DNA of 64,000 nt from Vampirovibrionales bacterium (lineage in GTDB: Bacteria > Cyanobacteriota > Vampirovibrionia > Vampirovibrionales > Vampirovibrionaceae). The stretch spans positions 186,001 to 250,000 of the forward strand of contig JARXAD010000013.1 in assembly GCA_029866025.1 (NCBI GenBank). Direction: 5' to 3'. The translations under genes were made by a program, and so were the position numbers. The notes below the pieces were generated by a model. The model saw only the letters and a list, made by a program, of their open reading frames with translations. It searched no databases and had not been told where the DNA came from. Of this stretch, positions 37,562 through 62,301 are shown in pieces (within the stretch, counting starts at the first letter, position 1; each line of letters begins with the position of its first letter).

Positions 37562-37672
37562 GTGGAGACGGGTGGGACAGTCGGTGCAATTCCGACGCGG
37601 TGCCGCCACTGTGACCTGAGGATGATTGGCTTTGCCATCGCATCTCTTAGCAGCCAGAACGCCGCCTACTCC
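37562..37672 (+). promoter_or_regulatory. Cobalamin (B12) riboswitch
   Basis: The conserved core is visible. GGGAC at 37574-37578 is followed by the stem GTCGG (37580-37584)/CCGAC (37592-37596) enclosing TGCAATT. GCGGTGCCGCCACTGTGACC follows, then an arm around gatgattggc/gccatcgcatc and the B12-box-like AGCCAGAACGCCGCC at 37652-37666. This matches the class RF00174 layout. The next start codon on this strand is the TTG at 37737. A possible TCAGC/GCTGA hairpin (37705-37730) in between could act as an expression platform. It should respond to adenosyl- or other cobalamin. Confidence 0.88.
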
Positions 37673-37736: not shown

Positions 37737-39254
37737 TTGAATCTCCCTTTCAGTTTGCCGTTGCTTTTGTCGCGGGTCTCTGCATTTGTTGCTCTTTTTC
37801 TTATTGGTGTTGTTGTGTCGTTGCCGCTTACGTCTGTTAACCAAGCTTTTCACCGTTTTGCTTTATCGCCAAACGAACAGCCTCCCAACTCATGGCATGC
37901 TTCACCGTTTCGGGAATTTGGTAACAGCCCAGAGAGCGTTAAATCCTTTGAACCCAGTGAGACAGCCTTGAAACCTTTGGATAACGCCGATGTGGATTTG
38001 GGCGTTCAAGGATTTTTATCACCAGCCAGGTTAGTGTGGGCAGCCGGCTTATTTGCGGCCGGTTTGGCCTTGCCCTTAGTTTTTAGAAAACCAATTGGGC
38101 GTTGGTTGTTTAAAGGGGCCGATGAGGCCCTTCAATTAACCAAAGCCAAAATCACTCCAACAAAAGGGATAATAGAAAAATCCGTTAATGAGGGCCATGA
38201 TTTAGAATATACCCAGTTTAATACCATTCAAAATCCTATTTTATCCACGGCTATTTTGGCAGTAGACCCAGCCATGAAACCAGTGGTGGCACTGTATGCC
38301 CTCGTAAGCGTGTTGGGGGTTGTGGGCGGTGCCTTTGTGGAGGGCCTACAAGAAACCTGGGTGCGTTCGGAAGAGACCCATATTCGTAAGCGTGCCTTAG
38401 AAAGCTTGGTCACAACGTATCAGCAAAGTATTCAACGCAAAGAACAATTATTGCAACAGTTACGCGAACGAACCTGGAATACGTTGGCTGGTTTTCTTAC
38501 CGAAGCAGGGGTGTCCAATGTAGCGGCGTATCATCCGCGTTGGGCCGGTATTCCTTCGCTAGATGCCTTAAATAAGGAACATCGTAAAAATTATTTGCTG
38601 GAGCCAAGACCCATTGGTGTACCCTTTGGCGTTGGTATCAACAAACATCTTTCATCCTTTGGTACAAATAATTCTCCGCCGCTGCTTAACACACCCGATT
38701 GGATGAATGTTCTTGCGACGGTGTTTCCTTTTGGGTTTGGTGCTGTGGTGGGGCTGTTGTTATCGGGTGCCTCTCAAACTTGGGGGCGTTTAAAAGCCGT
38801 TATTGATAGCACCACTCAAGCGGCGAATAAAAAAAGCATGGTCACCAGTGTGGTGGCGTATGATTTGGAGGCGTTGGCTGCTATTTCGAAGCGCCTAGGA
38901 ACCCCCACCTTATTGCTAGGGTATGGCTTATTGGTAGGGGCGGTTGGGGCGGGAAAATCCTTGATAAGTGGCCTGCGAGAAATAGTCGTGACCCAGAAAA
39001 ATGCCCATACCGAGGTGGCATTTCAGCGTGAAAACTGGCTGAATATTAGTACGCGTATGATGTTGGCTGCAGAAACGGCGTGGACCACCACGGCCTTACA
39101 ACGCTTTCAGGGGGATTTACCCTATCTAAAAGCCTACCCTCAAGCGTTGCGGCAGCGGGTGCATGGGGTCATCAATAGTATAGGGTTTAATTCCACTCCG
39201 CCTCATTACCTGACTTCGTTGGGCCTTACCATTACGGAAGGCAGCCGCCGCTAG
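37737..39254 (+). CDS. Multi-pass membrane protein of unknown function, under a cobalamin riboswitch
   Basis: The 505-residue protein has about five hydrophobic segments: near residues 12-32, 88-112, 178-207, 320-345 and 388-410. Between them lie charged helices (a Glu/Gln/Arg-rich stretch about 225-255 could be coiled coil). No cobalt transporter, TonB receptor, ribonucleotide reductase or Met synthase signature is seen, although these are the usual riboswitch targets. The start must be near the N-terminal hydrophobic stretch; the first available codon is TTG 37737, and no ATG occurs until far into the protein. The next gene starts 230 bases on. Confidence 0.6.
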   Translation: MNLPFSLPLLLSRVSAFVALFLIGVVVSLPLTSVNQAFHRFALSPNEQPPNSWHASPFREFGNSPESVKSFEPSETALKPLDNADVDLGVQGFLSPARLVWAAGLFAAGLALPLVFRKPIGRWLFKGADEALQLTKAKITPTKGIIEKSVNEGHDLEYTQFNTIQNPILSTAILAVDPAMKPVVALYALVSVLGVVGGAFVEGLQETWVRSEETHIRKRALESLVTTYQQSIQRKEQLLQQLRERTWNTLAGFLTEAGVSNVAAYHPRWAGIPSLDALNKEHRKNYLLEPRPIGVPFGVGINKHLSSFGTNNSPPLLNTPDWMNVLATVFPFGFGAVVGLLLSGASQTWGRLKAVIDSTTQAANKKSMVTSVVAYDLEALAAISKRLGTPTLLLGYGLLVGAVGAGKSLISGLREIVVTQKNAHTEVAFQRENWLNISTRMMLAAETAWTTTALQRFQGDLPYLKAYPQALRQRVHGVINSIGFNSTPPHYLTSLGLTITEGSRR

Positions 39255-39484: not shown

Positions 39485-41788
39485 ATGGGATCGTATTTTA
39501 ATAACCAACCAATGACCAATTGCTATCCCGCGCCAGTGGCCCCTTCGCGCAAGGTGATTCTTCCCTATTCTGGGCCCAATGGTCCACAGGCCGAGCCGAC
39601 GGTCTCGGTACCGGTTGCGAGTGTTTTTAATTTAATTAAAGGCGTATTGGATTATTTAAATCCATCGTCGTCCGTTTACCAGAATGCGTGTGCATTGCCA
39701 CCCATTCCTCAACAGGGGTATCCCACCCTGGGCCCTGATGCACAGCATCAGTACCCCGGTTGGTACTATGATGTGCCTTCGGAAGAAATACCGGTGCCCT
39801 GCACCAATAAGCAGTACCCATTGCCTGGAGAGCAGGAAGAAAACATTTATAAAAATCCTGTTAACAAGCCGGTTGTTAAACCGCCAATAAAAGACTTACC
39901 CGCCGTTAAACCTAAAAAACCGGTGGACACGGATGGTCTAACGGTGACGGATGCCACCCATGAAGAGGATCCGTTTGATACGGATGAGGGTATTTTTGAC
40001 AACGATGAGTTTGGCAACGACGACGAAGACAACTTCTCTTCGCCCGTAGCAACCTCCCCCCCCTTAGGCAGCACTGGCACAACCGGCACCACCGGCACCA
40101 CTGGTACAACCGGCACTACTGGTACAACCGGAACTACTGGTACAACCGGAACCACCGGCACAACCGGCACTACGGGAGCCCCAAGCACGGTGTTTACCGA
40201 CACTGTTGGGAACGATTTAACCAAAACCGTAGTGGATGCAGACCCCTACACCCAGTACGATTTGTTGGATGGTAAAGATAAACTAACGGTTCAGTCCAGT
40301 AGTAAAAATCTAACTGTAAATGCAGGCGCTGGAGAAGATAATCTGAGTATCTCCGGCAATAGCAATACCCTCGTTGTGAATGGGGGTGATAATTCCGATG
40401 TTTTTGATGTGATTGGAAACAATAATACGGCTACGGTCAATGGAGACGAAGGCATAGATACTCTGACCGGTTATGGAAATGGACAGAACAATACGTTAAC
40501 CGTTAATTCAGTAGAGACGATGAGTGATTATGGCTCTCATAATACCTATCATTATACGGGTACAGACGCTAACGATCGTATTGATTTAAGAGGAAACAGT
40601 ACCAGTTGGACCAGTAACATGGCGGGTGGCAATGATATTGTTTCGGTTTACTCCACCACGGGCAATACGGGTACCTTTGATTTAGGTGCTGGCGCCGATC
40701 AAATAGAAGTGGGTATTCGTCACAATGGCAATGCTGGTAATGTGGTAACCAAAGACAACACTTTAACCTTTAATGGGGATGCCAACGATAAGTTTAGAGC
40801 CTTCTGGAATCAAGGCACTGCGCCTGTCGTGCAAGATATTTCTCAAACGGCGACGGGTTGGGTGATTAAAACGGAAGGAAACAACACCTTTACGCTGAAT
40901 GGCATCGATAAAATTACCACCGATGGCAACAATAGTATTGCCATTGCCGATTACAAAGCTCAGTACAATATTCCAGGCAATTTAATTTCGGGTCCCAATA
41001 CGACGTTTACCGATACGGCTGGCAATAATTTAACCAAAACCGTTGTAGATGCGGATCCTTATATTCAATATGATTTGCTGGATGGCAACGATGCATTAAC
41101 CGTTGAAGTGAATAATAAAACACTTGCGATTAATAGTGGTGATGGTGACGACATAAACCATATAAAAGGCACCGGTAATACATTGGCAATAGATGGGGGT
41201 AGTGGCTTAGTTGATACAATTAATGTGGATGGAAATAATAATACTATTACAGCCAGTAATTCTGAATTATTTAACTTCGGCAGCATAAATAGTACGGAAC
41301 ATAATACCCTTATTTTTAATGGGACAGATGCCTATGATAGGGTGAATCTTTTTACGAAAGCAAAAAACAATAATTTAAATATTAGTATGGGCAAAGGCAA
41401 TGATAGAATCGATTTGCATGGTACGGGTAATACTGGAACCGTTAATCTCGGTGAAGGAAGTGACTATTTTGTTGTGCGGCAGATTGCTGCATCTGCTACC
41501 GAGGGTGGTGGTAATATTTTAGATATTATTGGAGATGATAATGATGTTCTTCAGATGGAGCCTTCAAACACCTCTGTTACAGACCGTATAAAGGGAATTA
41601 CTCCGCTGGCCAATGGTGATTGGAAAGTGTATTTGAGAGGCGCTAATAACAATGGCAATATAAACTACAATGTACTGACCCTAAAAGGGGTAAATAAAAT
41701 TTATTATTACGACCCCTTTACAACAGGGTGGCCTACAAAAACAATTCAAGAGTTTAAGACAGAATACAACATTCCAGATGTACCTTAA
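39485..41788 (+). CDS. Large repeat protein: GTT collagen-like stretch plus duplicated Asn/Gly/Asp-rich domain
   Basis: The 767-residue protein has no Sec signal. Regions in order: a Pro/Tyr-rich N-terminus with a hydrophobic helix (VASVFNLIKGVLDYL, about 40-54); a PGWYYDVPSEE box (about 92); an acidic DGLTVT...EEDPFDTDE box (about 155-180); about eleven Gly-Thr-Thr triplets (about 198-230). Two large repeats follow, each opening FTDT(V/A)GN(D/N)LTKTVVDADPY, at about 233 and 507. They are built of Asn/Gly/Asp-rich short strands (GNSNTLVVNGGDNSD, GNNNTATVNGDEG) typical of beta-roll or beta-helix proteins such as RTX. It is probably cell-surface or secreted, and calcium binding is possible. Exact RTX nonapeptides are not clear. 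Confidence 0.6.
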   Translation: MGSYFNNQPMTNCYPAPVAPSRKVILPYSGPNGPQAEPTVSVPVASVFNLIKGVLDYLNPSSSVYQNACALPPIPQQGYPTLGPDAQHQYPGWYYDVPSEEIPVPCTNKQYPLPGEQEENIYKNPVNKPVVKPPIKDLPAVKPKKPVDTDGLTVTDATHEEDPFDTDEGIFDNDEFGNDDEDNFSSPVATSPPLGSTGTTGTTGTTGTTGTTGTTGTTGTTGTTGTTGTTGAPSTVFTDTVGNDLTKTVVDADPYTQYDLLDGKDKLTVQSSSKNLTVNAGAGEDNLSISGNSNTLVVNGGDNSDVFDVIGNNNTATVNGDEGIDTLTGYGNGQNNTLTVNSVETMSDYGSHNTYHYTGTDANDRIDLRGNSTSWTSNMAGGNDIVSVYSTTGNTGTFDLGAGADQIEVGIRHNGNAGNVVTKDNTLTFNGDANDKFRAFWNQGTAPVVQDISQTATGWVIKTEGNNTFTLNGIDKITTDGNNSIAIADYKAQYNIPGNLISGPNTTFTDTAGNNLTKTVVDADPYIQYDLLDGNDALTVEVNNKTLAINSGDGDDINHIKGTGNTLAIDGGSGLVDTINVDGNNNTITASNSELFNFGSINSTEHNTLIFNGTDAYDRVNLFTKAKNNNLNISMGKGNDRIDLHGTGNTGTVNLGEGSDYFVVRQIAASATEGGGNILDIIGDDNDVLQMEPSNTSVTDRIKGITPLANGDWKVYLRGANNNGNINYNVLTLKGVNKIYYYDPFTTGWPTKTIQEFKTEYNIPDVP

Positions 41789-44140: not shown

Positions 44141-45361
44141 TTAAGCCACGAAACTGTCGTCGCCTGATTCGAGGAATTTGACGAATTCGGCAACACCGGA
44201 GGTTTGGGTCGAGTTCATCATGTCGGCAACGCTTAGTTTGACGTTAACGCCGCCCACAGGAAGCTCGAACTTGTAGCCTTTGGCACCTTTAGCAGAATCT
44301 GCTTTTACTTCGCAGAAGGTGCTTTCTAGTAAGTAACCTTTACCGTCTTTGCCATCTTTCAAGTCAATGGTGCGAGGAATGTAAGCGGCTTCGTACTCGG
44401 TACCCACCATTTTGGATTCAAACTTGAATCCTTTGGTTTTTACAGCAGGGTCAACGCCGTCTTGCAAATCATCCACCAGTTTAAGCACACCGGATTTGTC
44501 GGGCAATTCAAAGCTGGTAATGGCTTCACTCAGTTCAATGGTTTTGATGACAGCGTTGGCCACATCTTTAACAACGGCTTTGGGCTTGTCGCCGCTGCTA
44601 ATCTCAATGGTGTAATCGCCATTTTTAATAATGGAGGCACTGGTTGCAACGCCACCGGCGTTGGCAGCTCCGTTAATATCACCCATGACGTTTTTAATTT
44701 CAAATTTCTTACCGTTGGTTGCGGTGTCTGATAACAAGGTGTAGGTTTTGCCGGCTTGCATTTTGGAATCGAAACCATTGGTGAGGGTGCTGGCGAAGTG
44801 TTGGCCATTGATGGGGTTAATCTTCACGGTGGGGTCGCCGTAGATTCCGACACAAATTTGTTCGTCTTTATCGCAGCACACGCCGTCTTTACCGTCTTTG
44901 CCGTTGATGCCGTCCTTGCCATCTTTACCGTCATAGCCATTTTTGCCGTCTTTGCCGTTGATGCCATCTTTACCGTCATAACCATTTTTACCGTCTTTAC
45001 CGTTGATGCCATCTTTACCGTCGTAACCATTCAGGCCATCTTTGGGGGGGCAATTGTAGACAGGGGGCTGAGGGTAATATTCTTGAGGGTAGGGCTGGTA
45101 AGGAGACTCTGGTTGGCAAGGCGTGGAAGGGTATTGCTGTTGGGCATAGCTGCTGGGAGCTTGGTAGTTGTTGCGGCCTGCGAGCATGCTAAACAGTAGC
45201 TGCATTAGGATTTGGGGCTGTACACCAAAAAAGTTATTGTTATTGTAGATTGTAGGTTGTGGGCTGTATTGGGGGCGGGCATAGCTTACAGGCAGTTGGT
45301 ACGACTGAGGCTGAGCCACGTTGTAGCCACGGTAAGAATTAGCGTATTGGTTATTCCACAT
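44141..45361 (-). CDS. Collagen-like GKDG-repeat protein
   Basis: The 406-residue protein starts with a Tyr/Gln/Pro-rich segment. A short hydrophobic helix (QILMQLLFSMLAG, about 51-63), more Pro/Tyr-rich sequence (PQEYYPQPPVYNCPP) and about 17 collagen-type Gly-X-Y triplets follow (about 110-160; units GKDGINGKDG and GKNGYDGKDG). The C-terminal part (about 165-406) is globular and beta-rich, perhaps a trimerising head. GGGAG 8 bases before the ATG supports the start. Collagen triplets with charged Lys-Asp pairs can form triple helices in bacteria. Surface location is inferred; no Sec signal is present. Confidence 0.7.
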   Translation of the reverse strand: MWNNQYANSYRGYNVAQPQSYQLPVSYARPQYSPQPTIYNNNNFFGVQPQILMQLLFSMLAGRNNYQAPSSYAQQQYPSTPCQPESPYQPYPQEYYPQPPVYNCPPKDGLNGYDGKDGINGKDGKNGYDGKDGINGKDGKNGYDGKDGKDGINGKDGKDGVCCDKDEQICVGIYGDPTVKINPINGQHFASTLTNGFDSKMQAGKTYTLLSDTATNGKKFEIKNVMGDINGAANAGGVATSASIIKNGDYTIEISSGDKPKAVVKDVANAVIKTIELSEAITSFELPDKSGVLKLVDDLQDGVDPAVKTKGFKFESKMVGTEYEAAYIPRTIDLKDGKDGKGYLLESTFCEVKADSAKGAKGYKFELPVGGVNVKLSVADMMNSTQTSGVAEFVKFLESGDDSFVA

Positions 45362-61517: not shown

Positions 61518-61573
61518 TAGTGCTAAACACCCGATAGAAGCGATTATTCGGCTATGGGTGGGGAAGACCCTTT

Positions 61574-61744
61574 AATTATGATGAATTATGGTTAACTAGT
61601 GCTAATTACGTTTTAATTATTCTCAATTACTGTTAATTAAAGTAAATTATGGTTCATTAAATCTCAATTATTGGTTTTAATTACCGTTAATTACTCCTAA
61701 ATTACGGTCAATTATAACTCAATTAGCCTCAATTAGTTCAATTA
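61574..61744. repeat. Helically phased AATTA array (17 units)
   Basis: AATTA (twice as AACTA or CATTA) begins at 61574, 584, 594, 604, 615, 625, 635, 645, 655, 666, 679, 689, 700, 710, 721, 731 and 740. Intervals are 9-13 bases with a mean of 10.4, i.e. one per DNA turn. The bases between units are not conserved. It lies between convergent genes and contains no coding frame. Phased AATT steps are known to bend DNA. Confidence 0.85.
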
Positions 61745-61764
61745 TTAATCGCCTATGCCTGTCC

Positions 61765-61793
61765 GAGACTCACCGTAATTGAAGGTGGGTCTC
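61765..61793 (+). terminator. Terminator-like hairpin after the AATTA array
   Basis: GAGACTCACC (61765-61774) pairs with GGTGGGTCTC (61784-61793), with one T-G pair, followed by CTTTGG. It could terminate the gene ending at 61517, which would place the array inside the transcript. Confidence 0.5.
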
Positions 61794-61833: not shown

Positions 61834-61872
61834 GAAAAAACAGAAACCCGCCGATACAAGAACAACGGGTTT
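61834..61872 (-). terminator. Rho-independent terminator of gcvH
   Basis: On the minus strand AAACCCG (61872-61866) pairs with CGGGTTT (61850-61844), followed by CTGTTTTTTC. Confidence 0.7.
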
Positions 61873-61896: not shown

Positions 61897-62301
61897 TTAG
61901 TGGCTGTTTTCCACAAACTCGGCGTATTTGGCGGGAGCCAATAACTGCTCCGCTTCGTTCACATCCGTCAGTTGAATTTCAATCATCCAGCCATCGCCAT
62001 AGCAGTTGTCGTTTACCAGCTCGGGTTCATCTTCTAGGCGAGTATTGATGGCCACAATCTCACCACTAATAGGCATGTACAAATCACTGGCAGCTTTCAC
62101 AGATTCAATCGACCCGAAGCTATCACCTTTGTCTAGTTTGTCACCAATGCTGGGAAGATCCACATACACAATGTCGCCTAAGGCTTCGGCGGCATAATGG
62201 CTAATGCCCACCCGTGCGCGATTGTCATCCAAAAGGACGTATTCATGGGTTTCGTTTAACAGGGCGTCTTCAGGAATTGCGTCTACGAGTGCCAGTACCA
62301 T
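61897..62301 (-). CDS. gcvH: Glycine cleavage system H protein
   Basis: The 134-residue lipoyl carrier shuttles the aminomethyl group from the P to the T protein. The lipoyl-lysine is in GSIESVKAASDLY, followed by PISGEIVAIN; the N-terminal part has EYVLLDDNRARVGISHYA. GGAGG 5 bases before ATG 62301 fixes the start; the in-frame extension to 62406 is not protein. It follows gcvT on the same strand after 184 bases. gcvP is not in the window. Confidence 0.93.
   Translation of the reverse strand: MVLALVDAIPEDALLNETHEYVLLDDNRARVGISHYAAEALGDIVYVDLPSIGDKLDKGDSFGSIESVKAASDLYMPISGEIVAINTRLEDEPELVNDNCYGDGWMIEIQLTDVNEAEQLLAPAKYAEFVENSH

Follow-up and report, generated by a model that had tools for sequence, protein, structure and literature searches.

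Seventeen direct repeats in a single-copy array behind a small membrane-protein gene in Vampirovibrionales, a candidate landing strip for a cooperatively binding protein

The window analysed here, a stretch of 64,000 nucleotides from a Vampirovibrionales bacterium, holds 17 short direct repeats spaced at the pitch of the double helix between a small-protein gene and the convergent gcvH. We interpret them as a single-copy, cis-acting array just past the 3′ end of a small membrane-protein gene, with 17 head-to-tail sites for a putative protein that binds cooperatively; we give this a probability of about one half, a confidence limited by the sample of two genomes. The array is real, looks selected, is present in a single copy and is kept in place in two genera. 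Its recognition by a protein, the cooperativity of binding, and a boundary or scaffold function are what we infer from these properties. For the array in the window, a landing strip of this kind is probably a likelier explanation than chance AT-rich or merely bent DNA.

The genome holding the array (G000; 2.19 Mb in 13 contigs) has its nearest relatives among the Vampirovibrionales, the order of the predatory Vampirovibrio. The array begins 55 bp past the stop codon of a gene for a 164-aa protein and is followed by a G+C-rich hairpin and by the probable terminator of gcvH, which a simple terminator scan with a loop limit of 8 did not list (Table 1). Its neighbours are this small conserved protein, a PfpI-family protein and gcvH/gcvT. 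The small-protein gene is kept in all ten family genomes, and its product has no Pfam match. The protein family, of small and probably single-helix membrane proteins, shares the motif RRFDGGxExxLI; a scan of 85k species genomes found it at six loci only, all in its own bacterial family, and in the g5 genomes that were read the gene stands upstream of Flp-type pilin genes. No further copies of the hairpin behind the array were found in the contig stretches read, and a repeated hairpin or transposon end was rejected on this ground.

Table 1. The repeat array and the features surrounding it, in window coordinates.
Feature	Position	Strand	Description
Small-protein gene, 164 aa	61023-61517	+	Left of the array; probably one membrane helix (read from sequence)
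Repeat array	61572-61746	+	17 direct repeats T-N-AATTA-N3/4 in a single orientation; pitch 10.5 bp
Degenerate unit 3	61594-61598	+	AACTA (one mismatch); fills gap between exact words
Degenerate unit 9	61655-61659	+	CATTA (one mismatch); fills gap between exact words
G+C-rich hairpin, 10 bp	61765-61793	+	GAGACTCACC-9-GGTGGGTCTC; fold z -3.7; 20 nt past the array
Probable intrinsic terminator of gcvH	61845-61872	-	AAACCCG ... CGGGTTT, then CTGTTTTTT on the minus strand (read from sequence)
gcvH	61897-62301	-	Convergent right-hand neighbour; Pfam PF01597

Exact AATTA words begin at 61574, 61584, 61604, 61615, 61625, 61635, 61645, 61666, 61679, 61689, 61700, 61710, 61721, 61731 and 61740. Together with two one-mismatch copies, these 15 words make 17 units with the same orientation throughout. 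The successive spacings are 10, 10, 10, 11, 10, 10, 10, 10, 11, 13, 10, 11, 10, 11, 10 and 9 bp (range 9–13 bp, mean 10.4 bp), and the regression slope gives a pitch of 10.51 bp per unit, a value that matches one turn of B-DNA. Among 5000 shuffles of this 180-bp segment that kept its dinucleotide composition, AATTA occurred 1.5 times on average and seven times at most, and no shuffle came close to the observed phase coherence. The latter was 0.86, compared with a maximum of 0.77 when 15 words were placed at random in 20,000 trials. Outside the array, 410 kb of the same contig contain no pair of AATTA words 10 or 11 bp apart and at most three such words per 60 bp. A whole-genome pattern search returned this array and one chance match, with no second array.

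The conserved unit is somewhat longer than AATTA, because 16 of the 17 units have a T at position −2, and is better written T-N-AATTA. Each core base is kept in 16 or 17 units, and there is little information elsewhere, except for a mild preference for G at +7. Pairwise identity between units is 0.95 in the core and 0.26 in the three bases after it (0.33 is expected by chance from composition), and a history of tandem duplication and later uniform decay therefore does not account for the array. The site is not a palindrome. The A at +4 is present in 17/17 units and its palindromic partner, T at −1, in 8/17; the T at −2 is present in 16/17 and its partner, A at +5, in only 2/17. Since the site is asymmetric, all units point one way. 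The simplest account of this pattern would be that some factor recognises each core and so keeps it under selection. The sequence-only reading had described seventeen AATTA elements between 61574 and 61744 at ~10.4 bp, with variable intervening bases and an order unlikely to arise by drift in simple AT-rich sequence, and this observation was confirmed.

The nearest relative, JAUIEU01 (G001; single contig JAUIEU010000001.1), belongs to another genus, and its proteins are 73% (gcvH product) and 49% (small 164-aa protein) identical to those of G000. It has a regular array after the orthologue of the small-protein gene, in the same orientation relative to that gene and also followed by strong hairpins (fold z −3.3). 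This array comprises ten strict units TYAAYYTA and several weaker ones, with a shifted core TYAAYTTA. Its pitch is 11.28 bp, and its phase coherence is 0.97 at 11.3 bp. Identity between units is 0.29 in the spacer and 0.84 in the core, the latter value partly by construction because the strict units were chosen by their core pattern. The right-hand neighbour differs, and gcvH lies elsewhere in this genome, at 2,121,494 and out of synteny; therefore, the array goes with its left-hand neighbour. Between the two genera the core has changed in nearly all units and the spacers have not become uniform, a pattern consistent with a recognising factor that co-evolved with the sites.

Pattern searches and a sequence profile found arrays in 2 of 18 Vampirovibrionales genomes, one each in G000 and G001; the profile, being derived from both arrays, was expected to match them. 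Neither form of the array occurs in the other 16 genomes of the order. The other genera of the family have ordinary 3′ ends after the small-protein gene, several with an apparent terminator hairpin, and because eight family genomes keep the gene without the array, the array is not needed for the gene. The arrays of G000 and G001 could conceivably have arisen independently. Loci of two or three units elsewhere (G000:C3:85425; G001:C1:90751) are as frequent as in the reversed-pattern control. The first of them (85425-85455) has three like units, TTAATTA, TTAATTA and TTCATTA, in steps of ~11 bp, ~60 bp 5′ of a flagellin-like gene. No array was found in plasmids, and phages gave only matches with E 0.6, in four Synechococcus phage records.

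In the interpretation that we prefer, one sequence-specific putative protein would bind every unit with the same polarity, and bound neighbours would touch each other to form a continuous nucleoprotein patch of ~175 bp. Such a patch could mark a boundary by blocking converging transcription, or it could serve as a scaffold. Some observations count against a protein array: it occurs in two genomes only, the two pitches (10.5 and 11.3 bp) lie far apart for a rigid protein filament, and the depletion of G on the gene strand in G001 could point to RNA.

Direct repeats of 10–11 bp are a hallmark of OmpR/PhoB-type operators and ParR centromeres (PMC1906773, PMC7866108, PMC9241938, PMC5016525). The cyanobacterial Pho box is CTTAACCT (8 bp with a 3-bp linker), and Streptomyces PHO boxes consist of 11-nt direct repeat units (PMC1906773, PMC7866108). 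The array shares with these operators the head-to-tail repeats of 10–11 bp and the AT-rich asymmetric core with TTAA, and the cooperative occupancy of several units, which is theirs (PMC1906773, PMC7866108), is what we propose for it. It differs in having 17 units after a gene, whereas the operators typically have 2–6 units in promoters. Both genomes encode four OmpR-family regulators, and no array-type units were found upstream of the regulators' own genes. A PhoB-like protein is encoded, although its score of 249.9 bits is below the PhoB cut-off of 296.2. The Pho box scores 4.25/8 per unit in G000 (z 0.7) and 5.6/8 in G001 (z 4.7), and control words score similarly. A cyanobacterial Pho box (SphR operator) was rejected because the literal consensus is absent (partly present in G001) and because PstC (TIGR02138), of the high-affinity Pst transporter, was not found in either genome in a search with positive controls. 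The HLR1 element of RpaB also consists of direct repeats at a 10-bp pitch (PMC9241938), and the genome encodes, among its OmpR-family regulators, an RpaB orthologue (NF045944, 346.5 bits; NCBIfam cut-off 330). HLR1 differs in having two units instead of 17, and the array is not in a promoter. The HLR1 motif KTTACAWW is not enriched on the plus strand (z 1.0 in G000 and 0.6 in G001) and scores no better than control words, for which reason this operator was rejected as well. The array resembles OmpR/PhoB and ParR arrays in architecture, and we file it in none of these families.

The main rival to a DNA-binding array is an element that acts at the RNA level. The membrane-protein mRNA would then carry the array as an extended 3′ untranslated region, and its words, UYAAYUUAY or UNAAUUA, would be targets for an RNA-binding protein or a nuclease ahead of the terminal hairpin. 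If the small-protein gene is transcribed to the hairpin, both arrays would indeed lie in a 3′ untranslated region. The order of stop codon, array and strong hairpin is the same in both genera, and the orientation of the array follows the gene and not replication. The G001 array is also unstructured (MFE −5.9 kcal/mol, z +0.4) and poor in G on the gene strand, with 17 G against 52 C in 215 nt. In contrast, the G000 array is not strongly G-poor (19 G and 26 C in 185) and folds slightly better than its shuffles (z −1.9). An RNA tract would have no need of the nearly exact helical pitch seen in G000 or the nearly perfect 11.3-bp regularity of G001, and no known RNA family matches the array. On this balance we consider an RNA element unlikely. 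No Rfam model matched the array at its gathering threshold; a sub-threshold match to SNORD64 was dismissed as chance, and a conserved RNA structure was rejected because the G001 array is unstructured. Elsewhere in the window, the AdoCbl-II cobalamin riboswitch model gave a sub-threshold match at 37564-37672 on the plus strand (28.2 bits, gathering threshold 36.5, E 1.3e-4), 65 bp before an ORF at 37737.

A functionless minisatellite, decayed or evolving, whose 10–11 bp unit multiplied by slippage in a shared ancestor, seems to us somewhat less likely still. Tandem arrays that contain AATTA are common in viral contigs, with 56, 30, 28 and 46 stretches at 9, 10, 11 and 12 bp, respectively, and the reversed word forms 33 stretches at 10 bp. 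Because these arrays are spread over 9–12 bp and the reversed word is as frequent, the counts show no overall bias towards the helical period, and a helical preference of AATTA arrays in viral DNA was discarded. AT-rich phage minisatellites thus resemble the array in having AATTA words at a 10-bp pitch; however, the viral arrays repeat the whole unit with its spacer, as plain tandem duplications do, and their spacers are nearly identical (median identity 0.83–1.0). The G000 array repeats the core and not the whole unit, its spacers being no more alike than expected by chance, whereas uniform decay would strike core and spacer equally. Selection is also favoured by the persistence of an array at a single locus in two genera whose proteins share 49% identity. 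The tandem repeats at 40076-40173 and 44882-45043 of the window are protein-coding, Gly-Thr-Thr-rich and collagen-like GKDG-rich stretches of neighbouring large proteins.

The phased AATT tracts might also bend the segment, so that the shape itself is the function. With the De Santis parameters, the G000 array has a net bend of 125°, compared with 47 ± 24° in shuffles, and lies at the 99.8th percentile of the contig; its pitch of 10.51 bp suits phased A-tract DNA. In the Bolshoy wedge model, it lies at the 83rd percentile, without excess over shuffles, 41% of which are at least as compact. Both values are predictions from dinucleotide parameters. The same contig has places with higher predicted curvature, and the G001 array is predicted to be straight in both models. 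With a pitch of 11.3 bp and a coherence of only 0.23 at 10.5 bp, the sites in G001 do not lie on one face of B-DNA. The likeness to phased A-tract DNA is therefore confined to G000, where it depends on the model. Judging from these predictions, curvature is not the property common to both arrays and may be a by-product, and curved DNA as the function is very improbable. The phased T-tracts at ~124500-124850 of contig C2 in the same genome, outside the window, belong to the minus-strand coding sequence of a histone-H1-like protein rich in lysine and alanine; read by eye, this protein is a candidate nucleoid protein of the genome.

The poorest prospect is a plasmid-type centromere or another segregation or replication element on the chromosome (parC/ParR-like iterons), to which we give a small probability. 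In centromeres of the ParR type, dimers arranged as a ring or helix bind to an array of ~10-bp direct repeats (PMC5016525), similar in unit number and pitch to the G000 array, but the array here is chromosomal and has no par genes or parMR operon adjoining it. The ParM profile PF06406 gave no match in the genome, although the controls gave none either. The switches of GC skew in G001 fall near 0.6 and 1.7 Mb; its array, at 0.13 Mb, lies at mid-replichore without a switch, and no switch occurs at the G000 array in contig C2. Gene and array are co-oriented with the skew in one of the genomes and opposed to it in the other. The lack of a skew switch and the opposite orientations make origin, terminus and direction-dependent replication roles unlikely, and an origin or terminus element was rejected because neither array is at a switch.

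The proposals of the sequence-only reading fared unequally. A protein-binding array between convergent genes is supported by the conserved core, the random spacers and the array found at the orthologous place in another genus. A partition-type role keeps a small probability. The results did not bear out strong bending as the function, the placement of all sites on one face as a common feature, or a role at the origin or terminus. That reading had suggested looking for similar arrays, and the search found a single one in each of the two genomes and none in 16 other members of the order. It had also named two outcomes that would weaken its case. The first, that relatives have only irregular AT-rich sequence here, is contradicted by the regular array of the nearest genus and agrees with the other 16 genomes; the second, that curvature is no higher than in shuffled sequence, was found with the Bolshoy model and not with that of De Santis.

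Where short direct repeats form multi-site arrays, they usually point to an important nucleoprotein machine such as an origin, a centromere or a complex operator. The array described here occurs once per genome on the chromosome, stands after a gene, fits no known box and has cores that changed co-ordinately across two genera, features that make the putative binder identifiable by a single pull-down. Rho (PF07497) is absent from four family genomes, G000 and three others, and was found in 9 of 14 controls; a Rho utilisation (rut) site was excluded on this basis. This bacterial family seems to terminate transcription by hairpins or in some other way. In a more specific and quite speculative version of our interpretation, these Rho-less Vampirovibrionales would use the 17-site array and a dedicated putative DNA-binding protein as a roadblock between convergent genes, a bacterial insulator resting on cooperative occupancy and on neither a hairpin nor Rho. 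The array may reveal how a Rho-less lineage closes off converging transcription or anchors a locus.
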